From assembly GCA_029781045.1 (NCBI GenBank), contig JAKOXL010000024.1:87210-151209 (forward strand): DNA of 64,000 nt. Reading direction: 5' to 3'. The stretch comes from Bacillota bacterium. Lineage in GTDB: Bacteria; Bacillota; UBA994; UBA5500. This document shows positions 9,145-48,768 of the stretch, piece by piece; within the stretch, counting starts at the first letter, position 1, and each line of letters starts with the position of its first letter. A model generated the notes under the pieces. That model was given only the letters and a program-made list of their open reading frames with translations. It did not search any database and was not told where the DNA came from. The position numbers were made by a program, and so were the translations under genes.

Positions 9145-11003
9145 TAGGTCGTGTGCTGAGCAATCGCTACGAGCTTTTGGAGCGGGTTGGCGGCGGCGGC
9201 ATGGCCTTCGTTTACAAGGCCCGAGATGTGCGGCTCAACCGCATAGTGGCGGTTAAGATCCTGAGTCCACATTTTACTGGGGACGAGGATTTTGTGCGCA
9301 AGTTTAGGCGCGAAGCCCAGGCCGCAGCTAGTCTGTCCAGCCCCAATATTGTAGGTGTGTTTGATGTGGGGCAAGATGGTGATGTGCATTATATTGTGAT
9401 GGAGTTTCTCCACGGCAAAACCTTGAAACAGATCATCAATGAGAAGGGGCGTTTATCCGTACCCGAAGTTCTGCAGATAGGCAAGCAGATTGCAGAGGCC
9501 CTGCAAGTGGCCCACAAACATGGAGTAGTGCACAGAGACATTAAGCCTCACAACATCATGATAACTGCCGATGGGCATGTAAAGGTCACCGACTTCGGTA
9601 TCGCCCGCGCTGTCACTGGGTCGACGCTCACTGAGACGGGGGCAATGGTGGGCTCGGTTCATTATATTTCCCCAGAACAAGCCCGAGGTGGTATTGTGGG
9701 TGAGCTTTCGGATATCTACTCCTTGGGCGTGGTGCTATATGAAATGCTCACAGGGCAAGTACCCTTTGAAGGCGATACAATGTTTTCCATCGCTTTAAAA
9801 CATTTGCAGGAGAAGCCCCGTGCGGTAAGGGAGCTCAATCCCGGTGTGCCTGCAGCGGTTGAGCGTATTGTGCTAAAGGCTATGAGTAAAGACCAAGCCA
9901 GCCGCTATCAAACGGCCGACGAGCTGGCTGCCGATTTAAGGCGTCTCTTGCTGGCCAATGATCAGCACGTATCGTTGCAGGGACTGGTGGGAGAGTTGGA
10001 GCCGGTTGTACAAGACACGGAGGAACTAGAGAAAACACGGGGTGGAACTGTTAACGCTGCTAAAGAAGAAAACCCACCAGCGCCCCCCAAGCGACGCCGC
10101 AGGCCCTGGTGGCACTATTTGCTGCTGCTAGGAGGCTTGAGCCTTTTGTCGGCGGTGGTAGCTCTCTTTATCATTTTTAGGCCCGGTGCGATAGTAGAGG
10201 TCCCAAACGTGGTCGGTTATTCATTAACCGACGCCCAGCGCATTTTGGCCAATAATAAGTTGGGCTTCAGCGTTGGACTAGAACTCTATAGTGAGGAAGA
10301 ACCAAATGTGGTCTTAGATCAGGATATACCGGAAGGCCGTAAGGTCCGGGTAGGACGGGTAGTTACTCTTACCATTAGCAAGGGCCCCGAATATGCGGAT
10401 GTGCCGGATGTTACTGGTAAGCCTTTACGAGAAGCCCGGATTGAGCTTCAGAATGCTGGTTTTGAAGTGGGCGAACCGATCAATTACGTATACTCGGATG
10501 CACCGGAGGATACGGTGGTGAGCCAAAATCCGACAGGAAATACCCGTCTCAAACGTTCTACCCGCATAATGTTGACGGTTAGCCAAGGTCCGGAGCCCCA
10601 ACCCTTTACGATGCCTAGTTTGTTGGGGTTGTCAGTCACCGCAGCGCAGCAGCGTCTGAGTGAGCTACAACTGGTCTTAGGCGATATAAGTGGCCCTATG
10701 GATGGAATAGTTGTAAGTCAAACCCCTCCAGCCAACAGTCAAGTAGTGGCTGGGCAGGGGGTGTCCCTGCAGCTGGGACCCAGAGAAGTTACTGCCATCA
10801 TCTCCTATACGGTTCCCGAGAATAGCGAGGATAACAACCATAGGATTGAGATTCTGCGAGAGGATGTGAATGGTCTGGTTCTGCTGGAATCCCTGCGACT
10901 CAAACGCGGAGAAACGGTGCAGCGAACCATAAAGGGGGCCGGGTACTTACGAGTAATCGTCAAGGATGAAGGAGTGGTTGTGGTGGAAGAGGTGTATCCG
11001 TAA
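9141..11003 (+). CDS. pknB: membrane Ser/Thr kinase with three PASTA domains
   Basis: PrkC/PknB-type sensor kinase that monitors muropeptides or lipid II and, in spore formers, can take part in germination and growth control. Residues from GTG 9141: glycine loop 17-24, Lys39, HRD 131-133, DFG 151-153, a basic linker, one membrane helix around residues 325-345, then three extracellular PASTA repeats (starting near VPNVVGYS, VPDVTGKP and MPSLLGLS) and a short C-terminal tail. A TTG at 9126 is in frame, but GTG 9141 overlaps the stp stop and has a GGGGGTG site upstream. Confidence 0.95.
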   Translation: MIGRVLSNRYELLERVGGGGMAFVYKARDVRLNRIVAVKILSPHFTGDEDFVRKFRREAQAAASLSSPNIVGVFDVGQDGDVHYIVMEFLHGKTLKQIINEKGRLSVPEVLQIGKQIAEALQVAHKHGVVHRDIKPHNIMITADGHVKVTDFGIARAVTGSTLTETGAMVGSVHYISPEQARGGIVGELSDIYSLGVVLYEMLTGQVPFEGDTMFSIALKHLQEKPRAVRELNPGVPAAVERIVLKAMSKDQASRYQTADELAADLRRLLLANDQHVSLQGLVGELEPVVQDTEELEKTRGGTVNAAKEENPPAPPKRRRRPWWHYLLLLGGLSLLSAVVALFIIFRPGAIVEVPNVVGYSLTDAQRILANNKLGFSVGLELYSEEEPNVVLDQDIPEGRKVRVGRVVTLTISKGPEYADVPDVTGKPLREARIELQNAGFEVGEPINYVYSDAPEDTVVSQNPTGNTRLKRSTRIMLTVSQGPEPQPFTMPSLLGLSVTAAQQRLSELQLVLGDISGPMDGIVVSQTPPANSQVVAGQGVSLQLGPREVTAIISYTVPENSEDNNHRIEILREDVNGLVLLESLRLKRGETVQRTIKGAGYLRVIVKDEGVVVVEEVYP

Positions 11004-11884
11004 TCGAAGGCATTGTTATCAAGATACTGGCGGGTTACTATTTCGTACAGACAGATGCGGGTTTGGTGATGTGCCGGGCTCGGGGGCGCTTGCGTCAGGA
11101 AGATGTTAAACCCATTGTTGGTGACCGGGTTCGGTGTGAGCTCTTGAGCCCCGACACTGGAGTAGTAACGGAGATTCTTCCTCGACGTAACTCGCTCGAC
11201 CGGCCTTTGGTAGCCAATGTGGATCAAGTGCTGGTGATGGCAGCGGCCAGTGAGCCAACCCCCAATTTGGCCCTCATCGATCGCCTCTTGGTGACTGCTG
11301 AATACTTGGGGTTGAGGGCCGTGTTAGGGATTAACAAGGCAGATCTGGCGGTGGCCGATGAGGCCATGGATCTGCAAAAACTCTATCAGAGTATCGGCTA
11401 TCCCAGTTTCCTTTTCAGCCTGCGAACCAAAATGGGGTTGGCAGAGTTAAAAGCCCAGTTGGAGGGGCGGGTAACGGTGATGGCTGGCCAGTCGGGGGTA
11501 GGGAAATCCAGTCTGCTTAACACCTTGGTTGAGCGGCCAGTGGCAGAAACAGGAGAGGTAAGTCACCGTCGCGGCATGGGGCGGCACACCACCAAGCTTG
11601 TGGAGTTGTTGCCGTTACCTGCACCCATTGAGGGTTTCTTAGTAGATACGCCGGGGTTTAGCCGACTGCAACTGCCTGAGGGCTTGTTGGCAGCGGAACT
11701 GAGTTGGTACTTCCCGGAAATGAGGCCGTTTGCTGACTGCCGTTTTGGAAGTAGTTGTATGCACTTGGAGGAGCCTGGCTGTGGTATCAAGGAGGCACTG
11801 GCGTCGGGCCTTATCGCTCAGTCCCGTTATAACAGTTATCAGCAACTCTACGGAGAGTTATGGGAAAGGGAAAGGCGGTATTAA
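11000..11884 (+). CDS. rsgA: small ribosomal subunit biogenesis GTPase RsgA
   Basis: Circularly permuted GTPase that assists late 30S maturation. Motifs: OB-fold N-terminus (EGIVIKILAGYYFVQTDAG), G4 INKAD, G1 GQSGVGKSSLLN, G3 DTPGF, and the C-terminal Cys/His zinc site (CRFGSSC, HLEEPGC). Family alignment requires the protein to begin at about base 11000, but the codon there is GTA, next to ATC; no ATG, GTG or TTG exists in frame between the upstream stop at 10967 and ATG 11063, which would delete much of the first OB strands. AGAGGTG at 10988-10994 would serve a start here. GTA as start is inference; 294 residues match the family. Confidence 0.85.
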   Translation, partial: VIEGIVIKILAGYYFVQTDAGLVMCRARGRLRQEDVKPIVGDRVRCELLSPDTGVVTEILPRRNSLDRPLVANVDQVLVMAAASEPTPNLALIDRLLVTAEYLGLRAVLGINKADLAVADEAMDLQKLYQSIGYPSFLFSLRTKMGLAELKAQLEGRVTVMAGQSGVGKSSLLNTLVERPVAETGEVSHRRGMGRHTTKLVELLPLPAPIEGFLVDTPGFSRLQLPEGLLAAELSWYFPEMRPFADCRFGSSCMHLEEPGCGIKEALASGLIAQSRYNSYQQLYGELWERERRY

Positions 11885-45981: not shown

Positions 45982-46045
45982 CAGGAAAAATTTCCGCAGG
46001 AGGCGAACTTATGTTTTAACACCATCAGTCTGGAGTGAGTTGTCT

Positions 46046-47581
46046 ATGCTAGCTAAAGTGTTTAGTGCTTCAGTATTGGGTGTCGATGGCTTCTTAGTGG
46101 AAGTAGAAGTGGATCTGGCCCCCTCACTACCGTCCTTTGAGGTAGTGGGGTTACCCGATGCGGCGGTACGTGAAGCTAAAGAGAGGGTGCGTGCCGCCAT
46201 CAAGAACTCGGCAGGCCATTTTCCACGTGGACGGATAACGGTGAACTTGGCCCCCGCCGATTTGCGTAAAGAGGGTTCTGGTTTTGATTTACCCATTGCT
46301 TTAGGTCTGCTGGTGGCTGATGAGCAGTTGTCAGCCGATGCTCTGGCTGGCAGTGTTTTTGTGGGCGAGTTATCTCTTGATGGTAGTGTGCGTCCCACCC
46401 CCGGGGTTTTGCCCATGGCCCTTACTGCTAAGCAGCAGGGATTTAAGCGAATATATGTACCGCCGTCCAACGTACATGAGGCCCTTTTGGTTCCAGGATT
46501 AGAAGTAATGGCTGTGCCCAGTTTAGCGCAGCTCTGTCAGGCTTTGCGAGGAGAGGGGGATTTACCTTCTCCCGAGACTTTTCTGCCGCTGGTGAAGGAG
46601 CAGAGAGAAGCCAGTTACGAACTGGACTTCTGTGACATACGGGGACAGAAGCTGGCCAAGCGAGCTCTGGAAGTGGCGGCAGCCGGTAATCATAATGTAC
46701 TGATGATAGGACCACCAGGGTCTGGGAAGACCTTGCTGGCGCGGCAATTGCCATCTATTTTGCCCAGCATGACCCAAGCTGAAGCCCTGGAGGTGACTAA
46801 GATATACAGCGTTAGTGGTCTGCTACAAGGGCGCGAAGGGCTGGTAAGACAGAGACCCTTTTGCGCTCCTCACCATAGCATCTCCTACGCCGGACTTATC
46901 GGCGGTGGGAGAGTGCCTAAGCCAGGGCAGGTAAGTCTTGCCCATCACGGAGTGCTTTTCTTAGATGAACTTCCTGAGTTCCCACGCCGTGTATTAGAGC
47001 AATTGCGTCAGCCTTTGGAGGATGGGGTTGTACACATTGCTCGCGCGCAAGCCAGCATCACCTATCCCTCCCGCTTCATGTTGGTGGCCGCCATGAACCC
47101 ATGCCCATGTGGGTTCTACAATGATCCTAATCGCGAGTGCACCTGTTCCGAAATGGAAATCCGTCGCTATTTGGCTCGCCTGTCGGGCCCCCTGCTTGAC
47201 CGTATTGACTTACAGATCAATGTGCCTCGCCTGGAGTATGAGGAAATGGTAGGGCAAAGAGACGGAGAGACTTCTGCGGTTATTCGGCAAAGGGTAGAGG
47301 CTGCTCGCCAGAGACAGTTACACCGCTTCCGTGGAAGCTCAATTACCAGCAATGCGGCTATGAATACACGGGCTTTGCAGCAGCACCTCAATCTGCACCC
47401 CGAGGGAGAGAAGATGATGCAGGCGGCTTTTTCCCGATTGCGGCTTTCGGCCCGTGCCTATGAGCGTGTTCTAAAAGTGGCAAGAACTATCGCCGATTTG
47501 GCTGAGAGCGATCAGATAAAGGCACCACATGTGGCGGAAGCCCTCAGCTACCGAGCCTATGATCGTGAAGGAGTCGGGTAG
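46046..47581 (+). CDS. comM: YifB family Mg chelatase-like AAA ATPase (ComM)
   Basis: A 511-residue ComM/YifB protein: N-terminal Lon-like domain (residues 1-165), AAA core with Walker A GPPGSGKTLLARQLP and Walker B GVLFLDELPEF, a CxC zinc region (CPCGFYNDPNRECTC), and the C-terminal YRAYDREG end. ComM is a hexameric helicase promoting branch migration during recombination of transformed DNA. Located before dprA, its usual partner. Confidence 0.93.
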   Translation: MLAKVFSASVLGVDGFLVEVEVDLAPSLPSFEVVGLPDAAVREAKERVRAAIKNSAGHFPRGRITVNLAPADLRKEGSGFDLPIALGLLVADEQLSADALAGSVFVGELSLDGSVRPTPGVLPMALTAKQQGFKRIYVPPSNVHEALLVPGLEVMAVPSLAQLCQALRGEGDLPSPETFLPLVKEQREASYELDFCDIRGQKLAKRALEVAAAGNHNVLMIGPPGSGKTLLARQLPSILPSMTQAEALEVTKIYSVSGLLQGREGLVRQRPFCAPHHSISYAGLIGGGRVPKPGQVSLAHHGVLFLDELPEFPRRVLEQLRQPLEDGVVHIARAQASITYPSRFMLVAAMNPCPCGFYNDPNRECTCSEMEIRRYLARLSGPLLDRIDLQINVPRLEYEEMVGQRDGETSAVIRQRVEAARQRQLHRFRGSSITSNAAMNTRALQQHLNLHPEGEKMMQAAFSRLRLSARAYERVLKVARTIADLAESDQIKAPHVAEALSYRAYDREGVG

Positions 47582-47602: not shown

Positions 47603-47632
47603 TTGCTACTCAGGTGAGCCCTTTGTTATAAT
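47603..47632 (+). promoter_or_regulatory. candidate sigma-A promoter of dprA
   Basis: TTGCTA, 18 bases, TATAAT. The -10 is perfect, and transcription would start near 47640, after the first in-frame GTG of the dprA frame (47635), so that codon cannot be the start if this promoter is real. Confidence 0.6.
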
Positions 47633-47673
47633 GGGTGCCAAATCGAACAAGTGTAGGGGGGACGGCTAATGGG

Positions 47674-48768
47674 GTAAGGGAAGCGGCTTATTGGTTAGCC
47701 ATCTCCCAGTGGCCAAGGATTGGTCCGCGCCGGGCCCTGCGTTTGAAGGAAGTGCTGGGCACAGGGGCCGCTGTTTGGCAAGCCGATAAGGATACCCTGC
47801 AATCTGTTCTGGAGTTCACTCCGGAAGCAGTAGACAAAATCCTGGAGGTAAAGCGGCGACAAGATCCACCTTCCATGTTGCAGCGGATAGAACAAACGGG
47901 GGCATGGGTACTATCCTTCACCGATGCAGACTACCCCGCGTCTCTATTACAGCTTTTCGATCCTCCCACGGTTCTCTTGGGCTGGGGACAGCCCGTAGTT
48001 AGCCATTCCCGGCACCTAGCGGTGGTAGGCTCTCGTCGTATGACCAGCTATGGCCGTCGTGTGACCAACGAACTAATTGCTGGTCTGGCTGGTCGTGATG
48101 TGGTGGTGATCAGCGGTTTGGCCTTGGGGATAGACGGAGAGGCCCATCGGGCCGCGCTGGCCAACGGCCTCGTTACCTGGGCAGTTCTCGGTAGCGGTTT
48201 TGCCCACCTGTACCCTCCACAGCATCAGCAGCTGGCGCTAGAGATTGCAGAAAACGGGGGCACTTTACTAAGTGAGTATTGGCCCGATACCAAGCCTGAA
48301 GCCCATCACTTCCCAGCCCGCAATCGTATCATTGCCGCCTTAGCCGATGCGATCTTGGTAGTGGAAGCTGATCACAAAAGTGGATCGTTGATCACCGTTG
48401 ATCATGGCCTTGATCTAGGACGGGATATTTGGGCAGTTCCTGGCAACGTAACCAGCCGATTTAGTCGTGGCACGAATAACCTATTAAGGCAAGGGGCTAC
48501 CTTAATAGCAAGCAGCGAGGATATATTGGCTGAGTGGAATTGGAGTTCGTCGGGAGCTCAAGATGAGGTGGAAATGCCTAGCTTGCAGGGGGCTAATCAA
48601 TTGGTGTACCAAGTAGTTGGTCACCAAGATACAAGTTTGGAAGAGATCGTAGAGGCCTCCGGGCTGACTACTGCGGAGGTGCTAGCAGCTCTGATGGAGT
48701 TGGAACTGGGCGGCTGGGTGGAGGCGTCGGCCGCTCAAAGCTATCGACGCACCTCGGTAAAGGCTTGA
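47674..48768 (+). CDS. dprA: DNA-processing protein DprA, start region irregular
   Basis: Loads RecA on single-stranded DNA during transformation; in non-competent bacteria the role is less clear. Rossmann core with VVGSRRMTSYGRR, VVISGLALGIDGEAHRAAL, TWAVLGSGF and FPARNRIIAALADAILVVEA; C-terminal winged helix from about residue 300. A GGGGGG site at 47656-47661 is ideally placed for ATG 47669, but that ATG reads ATG GGG TAA. Adding one G to the GGGG run would join it to the DprA frame (giving MGVREAAYWLA). As it stands the frame's only start near here is GTG 47635, inside the promoter region. Coordinates begin at the GTA in frame after the break. Confidence 0.85.
   Translation, partial: VREAAYWLAISQWPRIGPRRALRLKEVLGTGAAVWQADKDTLQSVLEFTPEAVDKILEVKRRQDPPSMLQRIEQTGAWVLSFTDADYPASLLQLFDPPTVLLGWGQPVVSHSRHLAVVGSRRMTSYGRRVTNELIAGLAGRDVVVISGLALGIDGEAHRAALANGLVTWAVLGSGFAHLYPPQHQQLALEIAENGGTLLSEYWPDTKPEAHHFPARNRIIAALADAILVVEADHKSGSLITVDHGLDLGRDIWAVPGNVTSRFSRGTNNLLRQGATLIASSEDILAEWNWSSSGAQDEVEMPSLQGANQLVYQVVGHQDTSLEEIVEASGLTTAEVLAALMELELGGWVEASAAQSYRRTSVKA

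Follow-up and report, generated by a model that had tools for sequence, protein, structure and literature searches.

A conserved out-of-frame two-codon leader at dprA and a possible −1 slip at its second codon

DprA is a recombination-mediator protein used in natural transformation. In the window analysed here (a stretch of 64,000 nucleotides contained in G000, a 2.0-Mb draft genome of a Bacillota bacterium) and in three family relatives, the strong Shine-Dalgarno (SD) sequence in front of dprA is followed not by a start codon in the DprA frame but by a two-codon open reading frame, RTG-GGR-TRA, whose stop overlaps the first DprA-frame codon. Comparison of the sequences suggests that dprA is probably entered from this leader at the leader stop, either by slippage or by reinitiation. 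Of the individual routes we favour, tentatively, expression via the out-of-frame leader with peptidyl-tRNA-Gly slipping from GGR to GGG. With some more reserve we put forward a general form of this reading, in which the whole family would make DprA only via an obligatory −1 slip at the second leader codon, acting as a minimal dosage valve built into the gene; the lineage conserves AUH starts as well, in the unrelated housekeeping genes rsgA, rny, ppsR and infC.

The dprA locus and its two-codon leader

The features of the locus, all on the forward strand of the window, are as follows.

46040–47581, +: comM/yifB (Mg-chelatase-like ATPase), about 90 bp upstream of the leader ORF start
47603–47632, +: sigma-A-type promoter TTGCTA-18-TATAAT with TG before the −10 box (promoter scan and conservation)
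47635–47637, +: in-frame GTG, an alternative start proposed earlier, which precedes the predicted transcript start (comparison with G001 and G002)
47644–47657, +: stretch CGAACAAGTGTAGG of the 5' leader, conserved in four genomes, possibly a degenerate LexA operator (weak)
47656–47661, +: SD sequence GGGGGG, GGGAGG-like in the relatives, at 7-nt aligned spacing to the out-of-frame RTG
47669–47677, +: two-codon leader ORF ATG GGG TAA, family motif RTG GGR TRA (four-genome comparison)
47671–47674, +: G_GGR, proposed from the sequence as −1 re-pairing site for peptidyl-tRNA-Gly (GGR to GGG)
47674–47676, +: GTA, first DprA-frame codon, which overlaps the leader stop and is the candidate codon for reinitiation (four-genome comparison)
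47674–48768, +: dprA coding frame, intact, with proposed entry at −1 (profile matches and pN/pS)

The ORF belongs to the DprA/Smf family by profile matches (Pfam PF02481, E 3e-73, and PF17782, E 2e-10; NCBIfam TIGR00732 above cut-off), combines a Rossmann-like DprA domain with a C-terminal winged helix, and lies between comM/yifB on one side and a topA-like gene on the other. The −35 box TTGCTA (47603–47608) and the −10 box TATAAT (47627–47632) were read directly in the sequence, and the promoter scan recovered exactly this pair with its 18-nt spacer (score 10/12; one found versus 0.4 expected). Seven bases separate GGGGGG from the leader codons ATG (47669–47671), GGG (47672–47674) and TAA (47675–47677). 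The DprA frame is −1 relative to the leader ATG, reads GGG (47671–47673), GTA (47674–47676), AGG and so on, and stays open to 48768, giving an intact frame of 364 codons. The only upstream in-frame ATG, GTG or TTG in the window is GTG 47635, 3 nt behind the −10 box, and the next one downstream lies about 23 codons inside the DprA protein. The first-pass annotation had described the dprA start as broken, with ATG GGG TAA behind an ideal ribosome-binding site, and all elements of that description are indeed in place; the critical stretch it gave, 47669–47675, is rightly located but ends too early, as the leader ORF reaches 47677.

For comparison we used G000 and three family relatives, G001, G002 and G003, at 70–77% protein identity, so that the family test rests on four genomes only; about 660 kb of sequence was read as stretches. 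At dprA the four genomes read:

G000: ...TGTAGGGGGGACGGCTA ATG GGG TAA GGG
G001: ...TGTAGGGAGATGGAGTA ATG GGA TAA CAG
G002: ...TGTAGGGAGATGAGGCA ATG GGA TGA CTG
G003: ...TGTAGGGAGGTGGGGAT GTG GGG TAA GTG

The layout common to all is the promoter TTGCTA-18-TATAAT, a strong SD, 7 nt and RTG-GGR-TRA, with no indel or other length change from the −35 box to dprA among the four assemblies; the promoter hexamers are kept in every genome and the spacer sequence varies. One base back from the leader stop the DprA frame opens with GTA in G000 and G003, ATA in G001 and ATG in G002. Stop and first codon overlap in all four genomes, and the overlapping codon is canonical only in G002, where an in-frame ATG meets the stop as ATGA; the other three genomes have no usable in-frame ATG, GTG or TTG. 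The motif stands once per family genome at dprA (4/4) and is absent from all 395 other genomes compared within the phylum. In class relatives dprA begins with an ordinary ATG or GTG, in several of them behind a TGTTATAAT box; among the more distant DprA frames that we inspected, nearly all offer a canonical start no more than about 15 codons from the conserved N-terminus. Elsewhere in the four genomes SD-RTG-GGR-TRA is as frequent as in a reversed control, with no excess, and longer open frames behind such sites either possess an ordinary start in their own frame or extend across the site from upstream.

DprA is under strong purifying selection and is not decayed. Between complete genes, pairwise pS is 0.78–0.86, with synonymous sites saturated, and pN is 0.15–0.19; 4-fold sites are invariant in 7 of 50 columns (14%) across the four genomes. 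Six columns of RTGGGRTRA, among them its T-G-G-G, are invariant, and the three variable ones exchange only A and G, which keeps start, Gly and stop. At 0.14 per column, the invariant G-G of the Gly codon would be met by chance in about 2% of cases, and between the SD core and the motif almost all columns vary.

These data bear directly on the suggestion, made when the stretch was first read, that a homopolymer sequencing error or a recent inactivating indel had broken the gene. The site is G-rich and the assembly is a draft, but four assemblies share the same frame relation without length change, some with only GGG at this place, and the 364-codon frame is intact and under purifying selection. 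Because the relation is kept at saturated synonymous distance, the arrangement is neither an error nor a recent event, and we regard this explanation as practically dismissed. A break in one assembly together with relaxed selection, as a sequencing error or pseudogene would give, was not what we found. The third suggestion, phase-variable or slippage-controlled expression, survives in part. There are three to four G residues in the four genomes, with no length variation, and G001 and G002 have no more than GGG(A) here, so that phase variation of a G tract is very unlikely; transcriptional slippage is likewise unlikely, and what is left of the suggestion is −1 slippage by the ribosome.

Routes into the DprA frame

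Ribosomes should start on the leader rather than in the DprA frame. Aligned SD spacing over 166 ATG genes of G000 peaks at 7–9 nt, with a mode of 7. At dprA all four genomes place the SD 7 nt from the RTG and 12 nt from the DprA-frame codon, the latter a spacing used by 9 of the 166 genes, and from this difference we infer initiation at the leader RTG. The SD of G003 is very strong by the score of the spacing analysis; in this genome a third-frame ATG, 5 nt after the SD and 2 nt before the leader start, would compete. A weaker second SD-like element (GGAG or GAGG) precedes the DprA-frame codon by 6–7 nt only in G001 and G002.

In the slippage reading, ribosomes would bind the strong SD, initiate at the RTG 7 nt downstream, make fMet-Gly and arrive at a stop as the third codon. 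A minority of peptidyl-tRNA-Gly would then step back by one base, from GGR to the overlapping GGG, and read on in the DprA frame. Two things would favour the backward step: the SD, which would stay bound some 10 nt away from the P-site codon, and the slow stop in the A site. Most ribosomes would terminate at the leader stop, which would keep DprA low. The slip product would begin fMet-Gly-(Val/Ile/Met)-x-Glu-(Thr/Ala)-Ala-Tyr-Trp, and such an MG-hydrophobic-x-E N-terminus matches the usual short N-terminus of DprA. That slippage is the route, how often it would occur and that it would serve to keep dosage low are our interpretation of the sequence; the purpose may also be a response to termination or to the state of initiation factors.

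Several observations are consistent with slippage. The −1 frame is open and overlapping and its intact product is kept in the relatives, G_GGR is present in all four genomes, and tRNA-Gly UCC and CCC are both encoded, either of which can pair with GGG. Only the slippage route explains why the first two bases of the Gly codon are invariant. The candidate stimulator is the SD, with about 10 nt between it and the P-site codon. Downstream of the site we found no convincing stimulatory fold: folding does not stand out (z −1.28), covariation is slight, with a single compensatory pair, and an Rfam search of the dprA region gave no match. A plasmid search gave no match either, and among the papers searched on dprA and recoding none was relevant. 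To our knowledge, no cellular gene shifts frame at its second codon. A precedent for one SD serving both initiation and stimulation of −1 frameshifting has been reported in an IS element (PMC5009743). G_GGN is absent from the shifty Z_ZZN tetramers listed for E. coli, in a test made without an SD or an adjacent stop (PMC4066793). It should be noted that slippage is unnecessary in G002, which has a DprA-frame ATG here.

The main alternative, which the first-pass annotation did not consider, is termination-reinitiation: the leader is translated and terminated, and the retained ribosome restarts with initiator tRNA on the overlapping GUA, AUA, AUG or GUA. We think this somewhat unlikely as the route, although its geometry is that of ordinary AUGA coupling and the overlap in G002 is precisely the classical AUGA; the other three genomes would need a relaxed choice of start codon. 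What makes it credible is that the same genomes conserve AUA, AUC and AUU starts in rsgA, rny, ppsR and infC (see below), which is circumstantial. In E. coli, termination-reinitiation repairs mis-initiation at AUGUGA and GUGUGA (PMC9841429), reinitiation in influenza B tolerates non-canonical codons (PMC5972666), and AUA and AUU starts in S. aureus yield roughly 10% of AUG (PMC13009471). GUA, however, falls outside the AUH codons, and we saw it as a start nowhere else in these genomes. A single A-to-G change would give GUG together with a UGA stop, yet three lineages have no canonical start there, and reinitiation leaves the invariant G-G of the Gly codon unexplained. Direct initiation at the DprA-frame codon (GUA, AUA or AUG) from the SD, with the upstream RTG merely a decoy, is distinctly improbable. 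It would agree with the family's non-canonical starts elsewhere, with the second SD-like element of G001 and G002, and with the suspicion that G-rich SDs drive AUA initiation in E. coli (PMC4066793). The window, however, has no second SD, the spacing of 12 compares with 7 for a canonical RTG lying in between, and the conservation of TGGG would go unexplained.

Still less probable is that dprA has little or no expression, or is entered otherwise, for example at an internal codon or with the help of an unknown factor: the whole protein is under strong purifying selection over a saturated synonymous distance, and both promoter and SD are conserved. A longer transcript, for instance one reading through from comM directly upstream, could let DprA start at GTG 47635; such a start had been named at the first reading as the refuting result, and it is very improbable. 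The frame is open from this codon in the window and in G003, but G001 has GGA in its place, in-frame TGA codons follow in both G001 and G002, and the GTG stands 3 nt after the conserved −10 box, ahead of the predicted transcript start. Its conservation at the DNA level extends to genomes where coding from it is impossible.

Non-canonical starts and related recoding systems

Apart from dprA, genes with apparently non-canonical starts were seen in the same genomes, three of which are placed as follows.

11003–11884, +: rsgA, conserved ATC start overlapping the stop TAA (11001–11003) of the upstream ORF (four-genome comparison)
G000 contig C15, about 213629, and orthologues: rny, apparent ATA start
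G000 contig C15, 78529–79389, and orthologues: ppsR-like kinase/pyrophosphorylase, ATA/ATT/ATT/ATA behind AAAGGAGG

The ribosome-assembly GTPase gene rsgA has conserved non-canonical initiation. Its start reads ATC, ATC, ATT and ATC across the four family members, shares a base with the upstream stop in the window and overlaps that stop in the other three as well, and has no canonical codon as an alternative; the SD GAGGTG lies upstream at a spacing of 10, and the RsgA_N domain match begins at residue 2 of the ATC-started frame. Class relatives mostly appear to use TTG at this position. The gene for RNase Y, rny, was found in three genomes; in each of them its start appears to be a conserved ATA behind AAAGGAGG, with no canonical start near. 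A second ppsR-like paralogue has GTG or ATG codons close to the N-terminus. Non-canonical starts are common in infC, which here begins with ATC behind GGAGGGG in three of three family genomes. A genome-wide change-point scan for start-less genes was too permissive, flagging 104 of 636, and was useful only to spot rny and ppsR. Conserved AUH starts are thus present in rsgA, ppsR, rny and infC; dprA does not belong with them, having AUA in G001 only, GUA in two genomes, and a spacing of 12.

Several known systems come close to the dprA arrangement. Programmed −1 frameshifting of the dnaX and IS911/IS3 type likewise places an SD-like element upstream of a −1 re-pairing site; the dprA site differs in standing at the second codon of a cellular gene with a stop in the A site, in using a single tRNA on G_GGR without a convincing downstream structure, and in that the shift would be obligatory for the main product. 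As in prfB (RF2), a stop codon with a strong SD shortly ahead of it interrupts the beginning of the gene, but the autoregulatory shift of prfB is +1, at about codon 25 and with a 3-nt SD spacing, whereas that of dprA would be −1, at codon 2, with the SD about 10 nt away. With AUGA coupling dprA shares a four-base overlap between the leader stop and the downstream frame, which in G002 is AUGA itself; at dprA, however, the upstream ORF has only two codons, and three genomes have GUA or AUA as the overlapping codon. A further comparison is with conserved non-canonical starts such as those of infC, pcnB and S. aureus ccpN and cvfC1, since AUH starts with strong SDs are present in the same genomes, in infC, rsgA, rny and ppsR; two genomes, however, have GUA as the dprA codon, and a canonical start in another frame precedes it.

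If slippage is correct, strong SD, start, slippery Gly codon and stop would together make the shortest recoding signal we know of, and a cellular gene could carry recoding right at its beginning. Should reinitiation be the route, coupling to a stop would relax the choice of start codon down to GUA in nature. By either route gene finders will misplace or drop such starts, and dprA, rsgA, rny, ppsR and infC provide a conserved natural set for studying non-canonical frame entry.

The conserved 5' leader and the comM start

The 5' leader is strongly conserved between the −10 box and the SD. The first 11 bases of CGAACAAGTGTAGG are identical to a box, CGAACAAGTGTTCT, upstream of lexA in G002 and G003, and the stretch scores 12/14 to the Gram-positive LexA consensus, with the second half-site missing; the window contains about nine matches at the 12/14 level. 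A link of the dprA leader to the SOS response via LexA is therefore possible but weak. An 11-bp pairing predicted within 47648–47752, between CAAGTGTAGGG in the leader and CCCTGCGTTTG in early dprA, would cover the SD and is partly kept in the relatives, although it is not significant (z −1.28). The LexA-like half site and the CAAGTGTAGGG pairing are the only hints as to why the leader is conserved.

A very short ORF behind an SD was also noticed at the start of comM, on the same strand (46004–46046), where AGGAGG is followed by ATG TTT TAA (46011). Here an ordinary start lies downstream, and the true start of comM is likely to be ATG 46046 (MLAKVFSASV).
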